NCBI GenBank assembly: GCA_024762925.1 | Contig: JANTGM010000033.1 | Span: 1 to 51,915, forward strand | Reading direction: 5' to 3' | From: Kofleriaceae bacterium | GTDB lineage: Bacteria; Myxococcota_A; Polyangia; Haliangiales; Haliangiaceae | DNA length: 51,915 nt | In this document: positions 1 to 18,874 of the stretch, one piece after another | How positions within the stretch are numbered: the stretch's first letter is position 1 | Layout: each line of letters starts with the position of its first letter | Notes under the pieces: generated by a model | The model's database searches: none | The model's input: the letters and a program-made list of their open reading frames with translations, nothing else | Told to the model about the DNA's origin: nothing | Position numbers and translations under genes: made by a program

Positions 1-80
1 CATGCGTTGCGTCGTGCGTCGCGTGATGAGGTAGGTGGTGCCTTTGAATACGGGTCTGGGGTTCACGCCGGGGGTATCGG

Positions 81-195
81 GAAACGCCCGGCATAGTCGC
101 GTCGAAATGTTCCCCGGTCGGGGCTCGTGGGGGCTCGTTTTCCGGAAACGCCCGGCATAGTTGCGTCGAAATGTTCCCCGGTCGGGGCTCGTTGG
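81..195. repeat. 64-bp tandem repeat, two copies
   Basis: Two copies, 81-131 and 145-195, are offset by 64 bases and differ at about two positions over some 51 bases. Each contains AAACGCCCGGCATAG and later CCCCGGTCGGGG. Read on the minus strand, the CCCC-GACC-GGGG hairpin followed by AACATTT lies just past the recN stop, so the copies could act as weak terminators for nadK-recN. The array may continue to the left of the window. The first 60 bases show nothing recognisable. Confidence 0.8.
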
Positions 196-9564: not shown

Positions 9565-10926
9565 ATGCCAAAGAAGACATCCCCCAGCCAACTCATGGAG
9601 CTCTTTCTCGCGATTGCGGACGAGCTTGGCTTCCAATCAGACCATGACATTGCGGCACTTGCGGACGTTGGGCCAGAGAGCGTGGGGAATTGGCGCACTG
9701 GTGCCGTAAAAGAGTTCAAGAAACAGAAATTTCAGGCGGCTTTGGCCACCTTGCGGGTCCAGCTGCAAGCCTTGAGTGCCCAAGCGGGGCTGGGGCTCGA
9801 CCATGACCTGGGGCTTAGCCCGCTTGAGATCGAGCACGGATCAAGCCCATCCGATCTGCACCGGCAGTTTCGCGATCAGGTGGGTTACGACTATCTGGGG
9901 CACCGGTTCTTGTATTTCGAGCCACAGGGAGCGCTGGCTTGGGAGCGGCTCATCAAGGTGGGGTACGAGCAGGACTCTTGGCTCAGCGGCGTGGAGGAGT
10001 GTTGCGAGCGATTTCTCAGCACGGTTCGCGAATCTGGCGGTGGCGCGAAAGGCCCCTTGGCAAAGCTCTTGGGGCTCGGGCGCCGTGAGAGGGCTAGAGG
10101 GCTGGAGGTGATAAGTCTTGGCCCCGGTGAGGGCGGCAAGGAGGCGCGGATTCTCCAACACATCATGCGTGCACTCGATGGCAATCGAAGCCGAGCCCGG
10201 TACCTTAGCTACGTTCCTGTGGACGTCTCTATCGCACTCTTGCTCAAGGCAGCAGGAACCGCCCGTGACCTCTTTGCCAATAAGAGCGGTGGGCTCTCGC
10301 GGGCCCGGCTCTCTGTCTTGCCTGTGTGTGCCGATTTTGAGGAAGGGAGCCTGGCATTCGCTTCGCGTCTCCGAGGAGAATCTTCCAAGCCAGGGGATGA
10401 ACGTCGATTGGTATTGTTCTTGGGAAATGTTCTGGGGAACGTGAGAGACGAAGAGATGTTCGTAAAACAGAAGCTCGGCAAGCTTGTGAGGCCGGGTGAC
10501 GCTCTTTGGGTGGAAGTTGGTTTGCGCTCTCCTCGTCCCGAAGACGATCCACTGTTTGAGTTGACCATGCCCGATCGCGAGGAGACTGCTGGACAAGCCA
10601 ATCGACGATTGCTTCTCGAAGGGCCGTATCGTCGGTACCTCGTGGCGTCTGGGCGCGCTGCGGGTGACCTTGACTTACGCATCCGGGTCCGTAAGCAGGA
10701 CGGCAGCTCGCGCGTACCCGGTTCCTACAATTTCTGTCACGACTTGCTCATCCGCGACGAAGGTCGTTCGGTGACCATGCTCTACAGTCGCCGGTATGAC
10801 TTGGCACAGCTCGGTGCATGGTTCGAAGCCATGGGCTACGCCGTCGAGGGAATTCATCGATCGAAGGATTCGCAGGGGCGCAGTCGCGTTGGGCACCTCT
10901 TCCTGCGTCGCGTTGGTACTCCGTGA
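9565..10926 (+). CDS. HTH / EgtD-like SAM-dependent methyltransferase
   Basis: A 453-residue two-part protein. Residues 1-70 contain a helix-turn-helix-like segment (SDHDIAALADVGPESVGNWR, about 26-44). From about residue 100 on it resembles the Methyltransf_33 (EgtD-like, histidine N-methyltransferase) fold: motif I SLGPGEGGKEARIL (184-197), then YVPVDVSIALL (216-226) and LVLFLGNVLGN (282-292), matching the family's D-x-S and GS/N-x-GN blocks. The true EgtD makes hercynine for ergothioneine; no egtB is nearby, so the substrate is unknown. A good site AGGGG precedes the ATG by a few bases. Its TGA overlaps the GTG of the histidine kinase, coupling both. A regulatory role in signalling is inferred from the fusion and the operon. 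Confidence 0.8.
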   Translation: MPKKTSPSQLMELFLAIADELGFQSDHDIAALADVGPESVGNWRTGAVKEFKKQKFQAALATLRVQLQALSAQAGLGLDHDLGLSPLEIEHGSSPSDLHRQFRDQVGYDYLGHRFLYFEPQGALAWERLIKVGYEQDSWLSGVEECCERFLSTVRESGGGAKGPLAKLLGLGRRERARGLEVISLGPGEGGKEARILQHIMRALDGNRSRARYLSYVPVDVSIALLLKAAGTARDLFANKSGGLSRARLSVLPVCADFEEGSLAFASRLRGESSKPGDERRLVLFLGNVLGNVRDEEMFVKQKLGKLVRPGDALWVEVGLRSPRPEDDPLFELTMPDREETAGQANRRLLLEGPYRRYLVASGRAAGDLDLRIRVRKQDGSSRVPGSYNFCHDLLIRDEGRSVTMLYSRRYDLAQLGAWFEAMGYAVEGIHRSKDSQGRSRVGHLFLRRVGTP

Positions 10927-12419
10927 GTGTAGATGTTCCAAGCGCAAAGACCACCCAGCGCAGTCCCCGCAAGACGCTGCTGCTCAAGCTCCTGGTCGCG
11001 CTGGTGCTTCCGACGGTCGGTGTGTTCTCGCTGTTTGCGGTCTTTGCCTACGAGCTGCAGCGCCAAGATTTGGAAGCCGAGCTCGGAAGGCGACTTGAGT
11101 CCGTCGCGAGCGCAGCGGCAACCCAATTGCGTGGCAAGTATCTCGAAGAGCTGACTGCCGGTGATGAAGCCGACAACCTTTACTATGAGGGCGGCATGCG
11201 TCGACTTGAGCAGATGCGCTCAGCGACTGGGGTCGAGCGCCTCTATGTCTTTGATCGCAAGTTTCAAACCCGACTCGACACCGGTGGCGCTCCCATCGGC
11301 GCTACGCAATTTCAGGCCGAGATTGATCGAGGCGAGGTTGCAAGCGTTTTCAAGGATGCAAACTCCGCGACATCTCTGCTCTTTGAGGGAGCCAACGGAC
11401 GGGCCTACAAGGCTGGCTACGCGCCCGTCTTCATGAGTGCCGACGATCCACGTGTTGCCTTGGCGATTGGTGCCGACGCTCCCGCTGAGTTCTTTGAACG
11501 ACTGGGGGAGTTGAGAAAAACTCTCATTCTCTATGGGGCGCTGCTCGTGTTTGTGGTTGCGTGTGTGGCCATTGTGGTCGGCGTTCGAATCACTCGGCCG
11601 GTGCGTCTGTTGGCCGAAGAGGCTGAGAGAATCGGCAGCGGAGATCTGGAGCACCGGATCCCTGTGACCTCTCGCGATGAAATCGGATTCCTGGCGGCGA
11701 CGATGGAGACCATGCGTTCCGATTTGCAGACGCGCGACGAACGAATGCAGCTCATGCTTGCCGGAATTGCTCACGAAGTCCGCAACCCACTGGCCGGCAT
11801 GGAACTCTTTAGTGGCATTCTTCGCGAGGATCTCGAAGGCGACGATGAGAAACTCTCGCACATAAAACGCATCGACAAAGAAATCTCGTACCTCAAGGTC
11901 GTCGTGGAAGACTTCCTCGAATACGCACGGCGCCCGGAGTTGCAGATGCAGGATGTCGACATGGCAGCCTTGGTCCGAGAAGTGGCCGAACTCGAAGCTG
12001 GGCTGCTCAGTTCTGCCGGGCTTGAGTTGGAGCTCTCGCTCGAGTCCGTTCACTGCCGAGGAGACTCGTCGCAGTTGCGGCGAGCTATTCTCAACCTCCT
12101 CCAGAACGCCATACAGGCCGGGGAGGGCAGCGAGAAGCCGGTTTGCATCACGATCACGCGTCGTGGCGAGGACGCAGCCATTGCAATCTCGAACCATGGC
12201 GCGCCAATACCAGAGGATGCCCGTGAGCACCTCTTCGAGCCGTTCTTCACGACCAAGCAAAAGGGCACCGGCTTGGGATTGGCGTTTGTGAGCGAGATTG
12301 CCAGAGACCATGGCGGTACCATCGAGTGCACCTCCGATTCGGAGGCGGGCACCTGCTTCACAATGACCCTGCCGATTGCCCCAAAGGCGAACCTCCACCC
12401 AGCTAAGAGTTCCTCATGA
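10923..12419 (+). CDS. membrane sensor histidine kinase (NtrB/AtoS-like)
   Basis: A 498-residue kinase. It has a transmembrane segment at about 20-43, an extracytoplasmic sensor of about 155 residues, a second membrane segment at about 200-222, a HAMP linker ([24 protein letters not shown]), then the H-box [14 protein letters not shown] with phospho-accepting His284. The C-terminal ATPase has N-box [10 protein letters not shown], an F-box region and GTGLGLAFV. The GTG start at 10923 is chosen because it forms a GTGA overlap with the stop of the methyltransferase gene; an upstream frame exists but lies within that gene. Its own TGA overlaps the ATG of the NtrC-type regulator. It is expected to phosphorylate that regulator. 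Confidence 0.93.
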
Positions 12420-13792
12420 GTTCAAGCATTCTTATTATCGACGACAACGAGACCATCCGCGAAGGATTGGCACACACGGTAAAGCGCATGGGCCACGTGC
12501 CACTCAAAGCATCAAGTGGCGCCGGAGGTATCGAGCTTTTTCAGCAGAACCCTGGCATTGCGTTTGTAATTTCCGATCTAAAGATGGATGGCATGGACGG
12601 TGTTGCGGTTCTGCAAAAAATCAAAGAGCTTGATCCTGAGGTCCCAATGATGATCATCACGGGCTTTGGCACCGTGGAAACAGCGGTGGAAGCGATGAAG
12701 CTCGGGGCCTTTGACTTCTTAACCAAGCCCTTCGCGCCAGAGCTTGTGCGACTAAAAGTGGAGCGCGCCCTGGAACTGCGAGCTGCCCACAACGAGAAAC
12801 ATCGACTGGCTGCCCACAACGAGTATCTGCAGGATGAAGAGAAGGGCCAATTTGCCGATCTTGTCGGTGGGTCCGACATCATGAAGAAGGTCTTTAAGAC
12901 CATAGAGAAGGTCGCAAAGACCGATTCCTCCGTGTTTATCTGGGGCGAGAGCGGCACCGGAAAAGAGCTTGTGGCGCGTGCGATTCACAACCACAGCAAG
13001 CGCAAGGACGGACCGTTTATCAAAGTGAATTGCGGAGCACTCACGGAGACGCTTCTCGAGAGCGAGCTCTTTGGCCACGAAAAGGGGGCTTTCACAGGAG
13101 CCATAAAGACCAAGATGGGCCGCTTCGAACTCGCCGATGGAGGAACGCTATTCCTCGACGAAATCGGCGACATCCCCATGAGCATGCAGGTCAAACTTCT
13201 ACGCGCGCTGCAGGAACAAGAGTTTGAGCGTGTTGGTGGCGAGCACGCGATCAACGTGGACGTGCGCATCGTATCTGCAACAAATAAGGACCTCGACAAA
13301 GAAGTTGCGGAAGGGCGCTTTCGAGAAGACCTCTACTACCGCCTACACATCATTCCCATGACGCTTCCGGCATTGCGTGAACGCCGCGATGATATTGGGC
13401 TGCTGGTCTCTCACTTCATTGCGAAACTTGCGCCTAAGACAAATCCCGAGGTGCATGCGATCGCCGACGATGCCCTTGGGCGGTTCATGGCATATGCCTG
13501 GCCCGGGAATGTGCGCGAGCTTGAGAACATGGTCGAGCAGAGTCTGGTCTTTGCTGAAGGCTCCGAGATCGGTGTTGATGCGCTGCCTGCACAGCTACAA
13601 GGTCGCGGGGACGAGGACCGCTTGGAGGTGCCGAAAGAGATGAGCTTGCCCGACATTCTCGAGGACCTCGAGCGGCAGCTCATCCTGAAGGCCTACGAAA
13701 AGGCGAAGGGGGTCAAGACTGAGACAGCGAGGCTCTTGGGCATCAAGACCTCGGCCCTCTACTACAAGCTTGAGAAATACGAAATCGCCTAG
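12416..13792 (+). CDS. NtrC-family sigma-54 dependent response regulator
   Basis: A 458-residue enhancer-binding protein with all three parts. Receiver domain: acidic pair DD near residues 9-10, phosphorylation Asp54 in VISDLKMDG, Lys104 in LTKPF. AAA+ domain: Walker A GESGTGKE (177-184), the sigma-54 contact loop GAFTGA (224-229), Walker [12 protein letters not shown] and the R-finger region [10 protein letters not shown]-terminal Fis-type [23 protein letters not shown]. Each key residue is present, so it should be an active activator. Its ATG overlaps the kinase stop (ATGA). A palindrome and a -24/-12 promoter lie immediately downstream, in front of the next operon, which is a likely target. 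Confidence 0.96.
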
Positions 13793-13807: not shown

Positions 13808-13821
13808 CTCAGAATTCTGAG
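13808..13821. promoter_or_regulatory. palindrome, possible enhancer site for the NtrC-type regulator
   Basis: CTCAGAATTCTGAG is a perfect 14-base palindrome. A further half-site CTCTGAG lies at 13833-13839. The centre is about 85 bases upstream of the expected start of the sigma-54 promoter at 13874, a normal distance for an enhancer-binding protein. No T-run follows, so a terminator is unlikely. The binding protein is inferred from the neighbouring gene. Confidence 0.5.
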
Positions 13822-13873
13822 TCACCTTGATACTCTGAGTGTGGGCGCTCACAGGATTTCAGTGCCTTGGCTC

Positions 13874-13889
13874 TGGCATGACACCTGCT
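13874..13889 (+). promoter_or_regulatory. sigma-54 (-24/-12) promoter
   Basis: TGGCATGACACCTGCT fits the consensus TGGCAYR-N4-TTGCW with one mismatch: GG (13875-13876) and GC (13887-13888) are separated by exactly ten bases. Transcription would start near 13900, leaving a leader of about 80 bases to the ATG at 13980. It lies between an NtrC-type activator gene and the envelope operon. Confidence 0.62.
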
Positions 13890-13979: not shown

Positions 13980-15023
13980 ATGCCCGCCATCTTCCTCCAC
14001 TGCTTCGCCGCGTTTCAGCTCATGGCTGCGCCCGGAGCTGCAACCGACTCTGCTCAGAAGGCGGTTCGAGTGGCACAGGCTAGCCCGGTTGCGAGTGGCT
14101 TGACTGCAGCGGGACGACACAGCAACGGAGCCGCGGCCCGCCTCGCAAGCGCACGAAAGCGCGAAGCGGCCTTGGTTCGGCAGATGGCGGAGCTACGAGA
14201 GACCTACAACAAGCAACTTGGCGCCGTCGACAAGCTCAAGAAGTCGCGGGCAAGTTGGCGTCGTGATCGCAAGCTTCGTAAGCAAAAGGCACGATCACAG
14301 AAAACGGCTCTCGCGCTCAAGTCGGCAGATGCGCAGCTGCGAGCACAGCGGGTCTTGGTCAAGCGCGAACGAAAGGCCACAGTGCGGGCCATCGAAAAGG
14401 AGCTTGCTCTCTCACCCAGTGTTGTTCGCACTCGCTTCCTCGCTGGTGTTCTCAAGAACGCCCGTCGAGGCCTGGCGGCAAAGCCTAAGAAGATTTCTAT
14501 GCCGGACTTGGAGTTTGATGCATTCTCCGACCCGGAGGAGCTCTTGGAGCAGATTGCTCTCATCGAACGGGCCGAGGCGAAACTTGCTCGCGAAGAGGCC
14601 TCGCTTCAGCGTCGCGAGAGCCACTATGCACACATGGATGCACTGCGAAGTAAGCGAGACCGCGCCGAAGAATTGGTTGCCTTCGAAAATGACAATGTGC
14701 GGCGTTCAACTGGGCGCACGCAAAACGGCAGTTCTCGACAGGCGGACGATGGAGCAGACGTAAGCGGTGGGGCCCTCAGTGAAGCTGGCGCCCCCGAAGC
14801 GGGAAACGAATCTGGGGCAAGCTTCGAAACGAGTTCGGTCGTGCTTTCGGATGTTGTTGACTCTGGTACGCAAGATGCTCTCAGGCGCGCACACCGCTCA
14901 AGCAGCCCTCGCACCAAGGCAGACGCTGCCAGACGCGCCCACAAGCAGGTTCAAGAGCGACTCAAGCGACTACGGGCCAGCAAGGCTCGCATCAAAGCGC
15001 ATTTGCGCCGACACTCGAAGTAG
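13980..15023 (+). CDS. secreted coiled-coil protein of unknown function
   Basis: A 347-residue protein with a probable Sec signal (MPAIFLHCFAAFQLMAAPGAA). The mature part is very basic and helical: two long heptad-rich stretches, about residues 55-150 (Arg, Lys, Leu, Ala) and 185-230, then an acidic Ser/Gly-rich linker (about 240-285) and a final Arg/Lys-rich helix ending RHSK. This suits a periplasmic coiled coil that may bind acidic polymers or bridge envelope layers. No family recognised. It is the first gene behind the sigma-54 promoter, with only two bases to the next gene. The ribosome-binding site is weak. Confidence 0.75.
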   Translation: MPAIFLHCFAAFQLMAAPGAATDSAQKAVRVAQASPVASGLTAAGRHSNGAAARLASARKREAALVRQMAELRETYNKQLGAVDKLKKSRASWRRDRKLRKQKARSQKTALALKSADAQLRAQRVLVKRERKATVRAIEKELALSPSVVRTRFLAGVLKNARRGLAAKPKKISMPDLEFDAFSDPEELLEQIALIERAEAKLAREEASLQRRESHYAHMDALRSKRDRAEELVAFENDNVRRSTGRTQNGSSRQADDGADVSGGALSEAGAPEAGNESGASFETSSVVLSDVVDSGTQDALRRAHRSSSPRTKADAARRAHKQVQERLKRLRASKARIKAHLRRHSK

Positions 15024-15025
15024 CG

Positions 15026-16246
15026 ATGGTTCCGCATTTGATGAGCAGAAGTGTTCTCCCCCCCCTGGCGGCCCTGGCCGTCTTGGCATTGGGCACGGGC
15101 TCTGCGACTGCTGATCGTGAGACTCGGGTCTGGAAGCTGAGTCTCGAAAGCGGCGCCGAATACGATAGCAATCTGCATCGGGTTGAAGTCTTGGATGGCC
15201 AAGTAGCTGGAGTTGACGCTGGTCCGCTCATGCGAGCAGCTGCCCGCTACAAGCTCAGCGATCGCCCCGATAAACGCAGCCAGCTGCGCCTCGACCTGCG
15301 CGGTGGCGGAAAACTCTTTGCTGTTCCCGAGGGCCAAAGCGAAAACCTTGGTGTCATCTTTGCCGATCTGAACTACCAACGGAGACTTGGGGAGTCTCAG
15401 GCGGTCTTGGGCGTGCGCGGTAACTACTTCGATGCGATTGACATTCGCCCGTTCGGAGACGGTGTGCGCCCGACCAGCGGGCGGAGCTTTCGAACAAGGG
15501 AGATAAGAACATTTCTTACACTCCCGCGCGATAGAGCACATCGCCTCAGCATCCAGGCCGGTGTTCGGGATTTTGTCTACAAACCCGATGCGGACTACAG
15601 TTGGCGGGGCCCATTGGTTGGTTTGCGGTACGCCTCAACCCTATGGCTCGGCAATCCCGACACGGAGGAAGACGCGGCGTCGATCGACATACGTGCTTCC
15701 TACCAAGTTGGATTGCGGAGCTACGATGGCGCTGCTTTTCGAAACGCCTGTGCGCCAGGAGAGATGCCCGCACCGGATTGCTTTGTGCCAACCGAAGAGA
15801 GCCGCTCCGACTTGAACCACCTCGTCATCGTGGAAGGGCTCTTCACGGGCAAGCGGATCTACTCACTTCTCTATGGAGCCGAGGTTGTCGACTCAAATAG
15901 CTATGGCCAAGCCTCTGTGCGGCAGCGCGTGGTGGCCGGGTTCACCAGTGTGCTTGTTGCCGATATTTTTCTCACGGCTCGGGCGATTGTCCGTCTCAAC
16001 ACATTTCTCGATCCGCTCTTGCTCGCTCGTGATCTGCAAAACCAGAACTTCGTCTCCATCGAGGATGAGAATCGCAACTCGCTGAGCTTGCACTTGGCCC
16101 GCGACTTGACTCGCCATTGGGGCGCAGAGGCACGATTTGCGGTGTACAGCAACGAATTCGCGACGCAGGAACTCCGCTTCCGACGCCAGACGGCCTATAT
16201 TGGTTTACTGTATCGATTTGAGGGAGATTCGAGCCGCAGGCTGTGA
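15026..16246 (+). CDS. outer-membrane beta-barrel-like protein
   Basis: A 406-residue protein with signal peptide (about 1-29: hydrophobic VLPPLAALAVLALGTGSATA). The mature sequence shows repeated amphipathic strands such as WKLSLESGAEYDSNLHR and LSLHLARDLTRHWGAEARFAV, with turns rich in Asp, Asn and Gly, and ends AYIGLLYRFEGDSSRRL. This resembles barrel proteins that carry a 'gaeYdsN' start seen in surface-lipoprotein assembly modifier or exopolysaccharide-export barrels; the homology is not proven. It sits two bases behind the coiled-coil gene and 12 bases ahead of a Cys-rich lipoprotein, so all three form one operon. Confidence 0.75.
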   Translation: MVPHLMSRSVLPPLAALAVLALGTGSATADRETRVWKLSLESGAEYDSNLHRVEVLDGQVAGVDAGPLMRAAARYKLSDRPDKRSQLRLDLRGGGKLFAVPEGQSENLGVIFADLNYQRRLGESQAVLGVRGNYFDAIDIRPFGDGVRPTSGRSFRTREIRTFLTLPRDRAHRLSIQAGVRDFVYKPDADYSWRGPLVGLRYASTLWLGNPDTEEDAASIDIRASYQVGLRSYDGAAFRNACAPGEMPAPDCFVPTEESRSDLNHLVIVEGLFTGKRIYSLLYGAEVVDSNSYGQASVRQRVVAGFTSVLVADIFLTARAIVRLNTFLDPLLLARDLQNQNFVSIEDENRNSLSLHLARDLTRHWGAEARFAVYSNEFATQELRFRRQTAYIGLLYRFEGDSSRRL

Positions 16247-16258
16247 TACCCAGCAGCC

Positions 16259-16594
16259 ATGCGTTGCCTTTGGTGGTTGTTGATGAGTTTCTGTCTCTTG
16301 TCGGCTTCTGCCTGCAACAAACCTGAGATCGAAGACTGCCGACGAGCGTGCTGGAACTACAACAAAGTGATGTTTTGGGACAAGGTTGAGCAGGACGTAA
16401 AGGGCCTCCCCCCCGCCGAAGCTGCCGCCCTCCGTGCCGAGCGCGAGGTCGAGTTTAAGAAGATTGCTGAACGGCCAGAAGATCAGGGCCTGCTCAACTG
16501 CATCACCAACTGCCAGAACGATGCAAACAAGGACCAAGTGAAGTGCATGCAGGAGAAGAAGACCGCAGCATCCATTGAGTCCTGCATGAAGTAG
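16259..16594 (+). CDS. small Cys-rich lipoprotein
   Basis: A 111-residue lipoprotein: signal MRCLWWLLMSFCLLSASAC with lipidated Cys19. The mature 92 residues contain six more Cys, including two Cx3C pairs (CRRAC at 27-31 and CITNC) separated by a charged helix, then two Cys near the end. The twin Cx3C spacing suggests a helical hairpin held by disulfides, like coiled-coil-helix proteins; that is inference from spacing alone. It is the last gene of the operon that starts at 13980. Function unknown. Confidence 0.75.
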   Translation: MRCLWWLLMSFCLLSASACNKPEIEDCRRACWNYNKVMFWDKVEQDVKGLPPAEAAALRAEREVEFKKIAERPEDQGLLNCITNCQNDANKDQVKCMQEKKTAASIESCMK

Positions 16595-16861
16595 CTGGCC
16601 TTCCAGGTGGCGCCGGCACACCCCTCGCGTCTGCTGCTACCGCTCGTGGCCCTGGGGCTGAGCAGATCCAAGCTGAGCGAGATGTGTTGCGAATGAGTGG
16701 ACTCTACCGCCGGGGCCGTACGAGCTAGCGCACATGGAAAGCCTCTGAAGCTCGTCCTGATTCTCTCGTTGTTCAGGCACCCGAGGTTGGCGCCACGATC
16801 TGGCAATGAATTTTCGGCAGTGAGGAGCGTTCCTGGCACCATTTGTGCTCTAGTTTCGGGC

Positions 16862-17782
16862 ATGACACAGCCCAAGAAGATCCTGGTTCCCGTCGACTTC
16901 TCGTCTGAGCAGTCCAGGGTGTTGCATCAAGCCACGATACTGGCCACACAGCTGGACGCGTCGTTGCTGCTTCTGCACTGCGCTGCACCGCTCGAGCTGT
17001 CTACAGTCGCGTTTGAGCCGGTCTATGTGCCCGCAGAGGTCATTGAGCGCTTCCGTGGAGATCACCTTTCAGCAGCAGAGAAGAAGCTCGAAGCAGTGGC
17101 GGATGGATTGCGCGCAAAGCTTGCGGTCGAGGTGCATGTCAAGGCGTGTGCTCCCGTTGATGGCATCGTACAAATGGCGCAAGAAGCCGAGTGCTCCTAC
17201 ATCGTCATGGGGTCTCGTGGTGGTGGCATCGGTCCGTTCTTGCTCGGCAGCGTCGCCGAACAAGTCACACGGCAGGCTTCATGTCCGGTTGTGGTTTCGC
17301 GTGATGATGTAGAGGCAACCGAGTACAAGCGGGTGTTGGTTGGCATCGATTTCTCCCCCGCATCGGCCCCTTTGGTGGCATTGGCGCGAGAGCTGACGGC
17401 CTCAGGTGGTGAGATTCACCTGGTTCACGGATGGCAGCCACCACATCTCGATACTGCACACCTTTTTGGAGACACCGGCCATGAAGGCCTCGTCTCAGCG
17501 CTTGGAGCAGGGCTTCAAGAACACGTTGGCTACCTGGAATCGTTCGTAGCGAAGCTTCCAGAAGACTCTCGGTATCGCTTGCGAGTTGAAGAAGGGCGGG
17601 CTGCAACAACGCTGATTGAGTTGGCAGACTCGCTACCTGCAGATGCCGTCTTTGTCGGAGCGCATGAATCGCAGGGCCTTCGCGGTCTGTTGGGCACGGT
17701 GGCCGATCGAGTCTTGCGCAAGGCCAAGACCACCGTACTCTTGACCGAAGCTGCTCGCGACAAAGCCCTCCTTGGCAGTTAG
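16862..17782 (+). CDS. universal stress protein, two tandem Usp domains
   Basis: A 306-residue cytoplasmic protein made of two Usp domains. The first starts KKILVPVDFSSEQSR and ends with the nucleotide-binding pattern MGSRGGGIGPFLLGSVAEQV; the second starts KRVLVGIDFSPASAP and ends VGAHESQGLRGLLGTVADRV, with the pattern less complete (G-A-H instead of G-S-x-G). The first domain may thus bind ATP while the second may not. The start at 16862 is chosen because it begins the domain; the frame is open another 165 bases upstream. A clear terminator follows at 17801. Confidence 0.93.
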   Translation: MTQPKKILVPVDFSSEQSRVLHQATILATQLDASLLLLHCAAPLELSTVAFEPVYVPAEVIERFRGDHLSAAEKKLEAVADGLRAKLAVEVHVKACAPVDGIVQMAQEAECSYIVMGSRGGGIGPFLLGSVAEQVTRQASCPVVVSRDDVEATEYKRVLVGIDFSPASAPLVALARELTASGGEIHLVHGWQPPHLDTAHLFGDTGHEGLVSALGAGLQEHVGYLESFVAKLPEDSRYRLRVEEGRAATTLIELADSLPADAVFVGAHESQGLRGLLGTVADRVLRKAKTTVLLTEAARDKALLGS

Positions 17783-17800
17783 CAATCGTTGGAATGTCGA

Positions 17801-17839
17801 AGAGCCCACCCGATTATCGAGTGGGCTCTCTCTTTGTTC
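17801..17839 (+). terminator. rho-independent terminator of the Usp gene
   Basis: A nine-base perfect stem, AGAGCCCAC (17801-17809) with GTGGGCTCT (17821-17829), is followed by CTCTTTGTTC. It starts 18 bases past the stop codon of the two-domain Usp gene. Confidence 0.85.
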
Positions 17840-17889
17840 GGATGCGTGCGCTACCAGCACCCTGCTCTGCCAGTAGACGCTCTGCCAGT

Positions 17890-17937
17890 AGGACGGCAAA
17901 GAGCCCGCTGGATGCGGGCTGTAGCGGGGCGGGCTCT
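17890..17937 (-). terminator. rho-independent terminator of the usp-hpf unit
   Basis: On the minus strand AGAGCCCGC pairs with GCGGGCTCT (17929-17937 and 17900-17908) and is followed by TTGCCGTCC. An alternative shorter hairpin uses 17914-17920. It lies immediately past the hpf stop (17941). Its stem closely resembles that of the facing terminator at 17801. Confidence 0.7.
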
Positions 17938-17940
17938 AGG

Positions 17941-18285
17941 CTACCGGGGGTGTCGTTTGCGGGCGTTTTCCTTGGCATGGGAGCGGTCGAGTTCCTTGAG
18001 CGCGGCGCGAAACACATCGCGTACTGCCGCATGAAAGTCCTCGTGGGACTGATTCAGCTTGGGATCGCGGTCGGCAATGATCTCTTTGCCTGGCATGCGC
18101 AGGTCCACACTGACTTTGAAGTGGCCGCCCTTGGTGCCATGCTTTGGAGCTGTGACAACAACCCTGCACGATTGCAGCTGAGGGCAGTGCTTCTCGATCT
18201 TTTCGACCTGCTCTCGAACGAGGAAGTCGGTGGATTCTGAGGCCTCCATGCCTCGGTAGGTGATGTCTAGACTTGCGTTCATCAT
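17941..18285 (-). CDS. hpf: ribosome hibernation promoting factor, short type
   Basis: A 114-residue member of the HPF/RaiA (sigma-54 modulation/S30EA) family, which binds the 30S decoding region and stops translation in resting cells. It starts MMNASLDITYRGMEAS, with conserved segments HCPQLQSCRVVVTAPKHG, GHFKVSVDLRMPGKEI and DFHAAVRDVFRAALKEL, followed by a basic tail. There is no long-type C-terminal dimer domain, so it is a short form. The ATG pair at 18280-18285 has AGGAG in front; the longer open frame to 18393 overlaps the Usp gene and is not used. It follows the Usp gene after 7 bases, in a stationary-phase or stress unit. Confidence 0.92.
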   Translation of the reverse strand: MMNASLDITYRGMEASESTDFLVREQVEKIEKHCPQLQSCRVVVTAPKHGTKGGHFKVSVDLRMPGKEIIADRDPKLNQSHEDFHAAVRDVFRAALKELDRSHAKENARKRHPR

Positions 18286-18292
18286 GGTACTC

Positions 18293-18874
18293 CTAGTAGA
18301 GGGCCCATGCATTGCTGCGCGTGGGGGCACTGCTCTTGTAATGAAAACGATGTGGCGGCACATACTCTGGCCCGCCAGTTCCTTTTGGAACATCGATGAC
18401 TTTGGAGCGTGCTGTGTCTACATACTCACGGGTACGTGCAACAAGCACGGGGCACTTCGCCGACCGTACGATAAATTCTGAGACAGAACCAAGAAGCACC
18501 CGCTTGACGCCAGTGCGACCATGGCTTCCCACTAAGATAAGATTGGCTCCAACTTCCTCGGCCAAAGCGAGCGTTTGCGGACCCGCTTCGCCAATCCGAA
18601 CGTGCACGAGCATGCTAAGGGCGCCCCCGTAACCCGACTCCTGCAAGGCGCTCTCAATGCGCTTGGTCGCCAGCTCCTGAACCTCCTTTGTATACTCAAA
18701 GTCGATTTTCTCGTTCTTCTTAAGACCTAGCCCCTTTTTGGGATCGAGCGAAACCAGAAAGTGAAACTCTCTAGTTTGGTCCTCTGCTGCGAGATCAAAT
18801 GCGTGGCGAAGCGCGAGTTCTGCAGACTCCGAAAAGTCGTAGGCAACAATAATTTGCGATGGATGTTTGTTCAT
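18293..18874 (-). CDS. universal stress protein, single domain
   Basis: A 193-residue cytoplasmic Usp protein. It begins IIVAYDFSESAELALRHAF and has the full ATP-binding pattern VGSHGRTGVKRVLLGSVSEFI, followed by CPVLVAR. A tail of about 45 residues after the domain (EYVDTARSKVIDVPKG onward) is longer than usual and of unknown role. It is upstream of hpf by 7 bases and downstream of the PhoR-like kinase by 160 bases. Its ribosome-binding site (AAGGA) is somewhat distant from the ATG. Confidence 0.93.
   Translation of the reverse strand: MNKHPSQIIVAYDFSESAELALRHAFDLAAEDQTREFHFLVSLDPKKGLGLKKNEKIDFEYTKEVQELATKRIESALQESGYGGALSMLVHVRIGEAGPQTLALAEEVGANLILVGSHGRTGVKRVLLGSVSEFIVRSAKCPVLVARTREYVDTARSKVIDVPKGTGGPEYVPPHRFHYKSSAPTRSNAWALY

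Follow-up and report, generated by a model that had tools for sequence, protein, structure and literature searches.

Dimers of NtrC-type proteins bind palindromic enhancer sites; once phosphorylated, the proteins assemble and, by looping the DNA, open sigma-54 promoters. In Myxococcus xanthus, the NtrC-like response regulator NmpR uses the inverted repeat GCGCA-N5-TGCGC in front of sigma-54 promoters to control its own operon along with a few others, according to the available text of its description (PMC11841059). The system that we describe here is likewise a myxobacterial NtrC-like response regulator with an inverted repeat before sigma-54 promoters. However, NmpR usually has two sites 14–15 bp apart and oxygen-related targets, whereas here there is mostly one site, of another sequence and with predicted binding, before an envelope operon and lipoprotein genes. 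Another M. xanthus enhancer-binding protein, Nla28, also has sigma-54 targets scattered in the genome, but the accessible part of its report gives an 8-bp half-site, CT(C/G)CG(C/G)AG, used as a repeat, and developmental and natural-product targets (PMC7910581). In enterobacteria, the two-component system QseE/QseF also works with a sigma-54 activator and is tied to a lipoprotein and to cell-envelope homeostasis; its targets, by contrast, are glmY and rpoE, and the available portion of that account names no coiled-coil/barrel operon (PMC6075780). Slam, or type 11 secretion, offers a further likeness, an outer-membrane barrel tied to lipoproteins, in the portions of the papers available (PMC8406197, PMC12282271). 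A role for sigma-54 as controller of the bacterial exterior, lipoproteins included, was already named in an earlier comparative study, in its accessible part (PMC3162934), so this theme is not new; for the present regulator, site and operon, we found no description in the literature searched. Comparison of the locus across related genomes indicates that its NtrC-type two-component regulator very probably binds a conserved palindrome and activates an envelope and lipoprotein regulon through a sigma-54 promoter.

The locus and its two motifs

The window, which is the whole stretch of 51,915 nucleotides that was analysed, is contig C33 (JANTGM010000033.1) of a genome of 6.79 Mb in 246 contigs; by the barrel protein described below, its closest named relatives are the Kofleriaceae MAGs Ww100 (66% identity) and NORP324 (56%). 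A membrane histidine kinase gene with HAMP, HisKA and HATPase_c domains (forward-strand frame 10818–12419, the true start probably lying further in) adjoins the gene for an NtrC-type response regulator (12416–13792, forward strand) and ends where the latter begins. A kinase motif stood directly 5' of the regulator in only 41 of 57 orthologues by a crude regular expression. The first-pass annotation had placed the palindrome behind an NtrC-type gene, which Pfam supports by finding all three domains, Response_reg (PF00072), Sigma54_activat (PF00158) and the Fis-type helix-turn-helix HTH_8 (PF02954); the gene ends 15 bases before the palindrome. Further along the forward strand lie the genes for an exported coiled-coil protein of 347 amino acids (13980–15023), an outer-membrane beta-barrel protein of 406 amino acids (15026–16246) and, as third operon gene, a small Cys-rich predicted lipoprotein (16259–16594; lipobox by eye). 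Pfam domains were found in the kinase and regulator genes and in none of these three. Outside this row, a gene with a histidine-specific methyltransferase domain (PF10017) precedes the kinase gene, at 9565–10926, and 16859–18874 holds a universal stress protein gene (PF00582) together with, on the opposite strand and by eye, a second universal stress protein gene and a ribosome-hibernation-factor-like gene.

The palindrome, CTCAGAATTCTGAG, is perfect over 14 bases, as had been noted, and occupies 13808–13821. By count alone it is at chance level, since the window holds 3 perfect 14-bp palindromes and about 3.2 are expected (51902/4^7); its support comes from conservation. A matrix from 39 sites, the window site included, gives it 25.1 bits; nowhere else in the window does the score exceed 15.8. 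The extra half-site that had been reported at 13833–13839 is present, as CTCTGAG at the 3' end of a second site (13826–13839), but it is weak, at 6.6 bits. As a second binding site it is unsupported, its 18-bp offset being no whole number of turns; double sites in other loci are 20, 31 and 20 bp apart (L202, L214 and L216, respectively).

The proposal of a near-consensus −24/−12 promoter was borne out by the putative sigma-54 promoter CTGGCATGACACCTGCT at 13873–13889 (forward strand), which has GG and GC 10 bases apart and fits TGGCAY-N5-YTGCW in all 12 template letters. The promoter motif alone is not significant by count in the window (96 promoter-like matches with up to 2 mismatches, versus 68 expected), and palindrome and promoter jointly match once in the window, at this place. 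The palindrome centre lies 60 bp from the first G of the GG (−24) and, at the distance that had been claimed, about 85 bases from the expected start (about 13900).

Conservation of the site before the coiled-coil gene

The palindrome proved to be conserved in relatives, both across the class and in 3 of 20 orthologue loci in other classes. Homologues of the window's coiled-coil gene turned up in 51 of the loci searched, of which six cut at a contig or fetch edge were dropped (L110, L111, L115, L121, L124 and L128) and 45 kept. Under a strict rule, which asks for 8/10 or more half-site letters in the site and 10/12 or more letters in the promoter, 39 of the 45 carry site and promoter before the coiled-coil gene. 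With D measured from the centre of the palindrome to the leading G of the −24 element, five of the remaining six carry an in-phase but weaker site or promoter (L019, D = 50; L021, D = 49; L050, D = 62; L055, D = 61; L113, D = 82), and the sixth, L034, has CTCAGTTTTCTGCG at D = 82. The consensus is CTCAG, four mostly A/T bases and CTGAG: among the 39 sites, positions 3 and 12 are invariant, the remaining positions of the half-sites match in 31 to 38 sites, and the middle four bases consist of A and T apart from two letters. Orthologues as distant as 63% identity (L022) keep the order palindrome, promoter, coiled-coil gene behind the regulator. The site is a conserved predicted enhancer, or upstream activating site, ahead of a sigma-54-type promoter at variable distance (40–94 bp).

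The three cases in other classes are loci in which the coiled-coil and barrel genes stand behind the regulator: L278 with GTCAGATTTCTGAG (D = 81), L296 with CTCAGAATTCCTAC (D = 94) and L297 with CTCAGTTTTCTGAG, at which no good in-phase promoter was found. In the other 17 loci, neither gene was present in the stretch read, two of these stretches being short. Outside the class the strict pattern gave only chance-like GC-centred matches; it evidently misses sites, because reading the loci yielded these three likely cases. Given the 17 loci without the operon and the unconvincing strict-pattern matches, it is probable that in those lineages the regulator has other roles.

The regulator and the operon also occur together. 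Of the 240 class genomes, 60 have a regulator orthologue (E<=1e-150); a sample of 235 genomes from the phylum gave matches in 37 (E<=1e-140). A barrel family profile built from 13 members found its family in 67 of the 240. Both are present in 57 genomes, the regulator alone in 3, the barrel alone in 10 and neither in 170 (Fisher p 9e-41, which overstates the association because related genomes are not independent). The 10 of 67 barrel genomes with no regulator match at the cut-off, and the reverse in 3 of 60, are presumed to reflect incomplete assemblies, which many of these genomes are.

The site moves with the operon

We read all 60 regulator loci of the class. For the 50 in which 700 bases or more follow the gene, we scored a site as present if it reached at least 12 bits within 300 bases. 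The coiled-coil gene lies directly behind the regulator in 16 of the 50. A site follows the regulator in 14 of these 16 loci and in 1 of the 34 in which the operon does not follow; where the operon lies away from the regulator, the site is found with the operon and is nearly always absent behind the regulator. On this pattern, the site looks like the operator of the operon rather than a feature of the regulator gene. The earlier description of a compact regulator–target unit is true of the window and of 15 other class loci, but it was too narrow, as in many relatives the operon is elsewhere and has taken the site along. The single exception is L063, in which two small open frames separate the regulator from the operon and, by eye, a second copy of the regulator 3' end with the palindrome stands in front of the operon. 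These frames (119 and 118 amino acids; genome G063) look toxin–antitoxin-like by eye only. In one genus (g5; G006, G010, G116 and G156; L013 and L219–L221), the two genes, coiled-coil and barrel, have been rearranged (lying downstream or, it seems, convergently), and the palindrome and promoter remain with the coiled-coil gene despite the rearrangement.

A palindrome beginning 15 bases past the regulator's stop codon could also be that gene's transcription terminator or an RNA hairpin, but its stem is merely 5 bp around a 4-base loop with no T run, and it also precedes unrelated lipoprotein genes. We reject this reading, which we give almost no chance, because the site parts from the regulator and stays with the operon.

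Separation of operon and regulator in many relatives would also fit an enhancer that serves a different, co-occurring sigma-54 activator, with the NtrC-type gene a mere neighbour, and the genome of the window encodes dozens of related regulators (88 scored matches) from which such an activator could come. Against this stand the adjacency of the operon to the NtrC-type regulator in those 16 of 50 loci, a phyletic pattern that fits this regulator (the one regulator compared) and the constancy of its recognition helix: in that segment K, S, A, L, Y, Y, K and L are identical in 57 of 57 orthologues. We consider a different activator highly unlikely. Seven paralogues from the same genome (8 fetched, 7 with readable ends) differ from the regulator in the recognition helix. 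We infer that the NtrC-type regulator binds the palindrome from the co-occurrence, the movement of the site and this constant helix.

A regulon rich in predicted lipoproteins

Joint searches with palindrome-plus-promoter patterns in two gap ranges gave 65 matches in the 70 genomes with the system, versus 17 in the 170 without. The former include 34 distinct promoters other than those of coiled-coil genes. A lipobox gene follows 23 of these 34, compared with 138 of 3985 (3.5%) random positions in the loci and 2 of 17 matches in genomes lacking the system. This lipobox rule was devised by hand; it misses four targets that look lipoprotein-like by eye (L154, L177, L181 and L202) and counts two doubtful ones (L201 and L265). 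Most of 30 target proteins had no Pfam match. Those that did include serpins in three targets of three taxonomic families (L030, in the window's own genome, L210 and L217), FG-GAP repeats (L154 and L209) and DUF2330 (L179 and L201). We infer that the response concerns the envelope. In a single genome, G094, at least six promoters of the palindrome type (L177, L202 and L214–L217) precede lipoprotein or serpin genes, three of these promoters having two palindromes.

In the window's own genome, G000, the scan with both motifs that the first-pass annotation had called for returned one further target, a lipoprotein serpin on contig C99 with CTCAGGTTTCTGAG at D = 71. The palindrome alone gave 8 sites there versus 6 in a control reading, which is chance level; by eye, a good promoter lies downstream only at C33, the window, and at C99. 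A relaxed pattern gave no further target in G000 within its distance range.

The distance to the promoter changes mostly in helical turns

Over the 39 loci, D falls at 40 (one locus), 48–52, 59–62, 69–72, 80–83 (plus one of 86) and 91–94. At 10.5 bp per turn the vector strength R is 0.72 (n = 39), and the best period is 10.8. With one value per genus and distance, R is 0.70 (n = 28, Rayleigh p about 1e-6); this and the following p values overstate the significance, as related genomes are not independent. The window's own genus has D of 60, 70 and 70. As a second set, the non-operon promoters of system-bearing genomes have an R of 0.53 (n = 34, Rayleigh p about 8e-5, or 2.6e-5 by simulation). 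A chosen set of 30, which adds L172 and omits L162, L166, L180, L184 and L265 for an unconvincing site or gene, gives R = 0.66, at nearly the same phase as the operon set (8.1 versus 7.8 bp). At two-site promoters the nearer site was used; taking the farther one gives R = 0.51. For the joint matches found where the system is absent, R is 0.19 (n = 17). The distance between palindrome and promoter looks to have shifted largely by complete helical turns.

Dependence on the face of the helix is known from experiment in a two-site sigma-54 system, in the available text of that report (PMC7408454); we found no report in the open-access literature that derives it from the evolution of spacing. Such phasing over six turn classes is a prediction of productive looping, which bears on whether the bound palindrome might repress the sigma-54 promoter instead of activating it. 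Sites 40–94 bp from the promoter could hinder looping, and the sign of the effect is not readable from sequence alone, but the regulator also carries a complete sigma-54 activation domain; we regard repression as very remote.

The coiled-coil and barrel proteins

Alignments of the coiled-coil and barrel proteins fitted none of the named families against which they were compared. The coiled-coil model is helical (pLDDT 82, pTM 0.53), and the barrel model has about 16 strands (pLDDT 81, pTM 0.76). With the barrel model, Foldseek gave 359 matches (E<=0.001), spread over porins, receptors and exporters. In VIA the best Z was 21.0 (CdiB), followed by porins and FhaC at 18–19, with many barrels alike; no Slam-type structure was among the matches listed. 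None of the 13 family members gave a DUF560 match, even with E values up to 1 allowed. As far as the available portions of the Slam papers allow comparison (PMC8406197, PMC12282271), the barrel here differs from Slam in having no DUF560, about 16 strands in its model and a separate coiled-coil partner, and it is known from sequence and model. By eye, third genes similar to the small lipoprotein gene are present at L011 and L018. Further downstream of the coiled-coil gene, three loci of different families (L022, L051 and L053) have a sigma-70-family (ECF)-like gene, also by eye.

Tentatively, the coiled-coil and barrel proteins might form an undescribed Myxococcota outer-membrane machine that exports, anchors or protects surface lipoproteins, with the regulator switching on the machine and its lipoprotein clients on envelope trouble; the set of clients would vary from genome to genome, with machine, site and phasing unchanged. 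We think this unlikely to be right as it stands.

Discussion

In the mechanism that we propose, the membrane histidine kinase, as presumed partner, would phosphorylate the NtrC-type regulator, which would bind CTCAG-N4-CTGAG through its Fis-type helix-turn-helix. On family knowledge, it would then loop out the intervening 60 bp and remodel the sigma-54 polymerase at 13873–13889. This would switch on the operon for the exported coiled-coil protein, the outer-membrane barrel and, here, the small lipoprotein, together with a few unlinked genes, mostly for lipoproteins, such as the lipoprotein serpin on C99 in the window's own genome.

For an orphan two-component regulator of uncultured Myxococcota, this would supply a defined DNA site, a conserved operon that encodes two protein families lacking database names, and a small regulon made up mostly of predicted lipoproteins, through which the function of the coiled-coil and barrel proteins becomes testable. 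The promoters also amount to a natural experiment, in which one predicted enhancer takes up about six spacings, separated by whole turns, and the spacing varies in this way even inside a single genus, so that evolution alone appears to support the face-of-helix dependence of a short-range sigma-54 enhancer.
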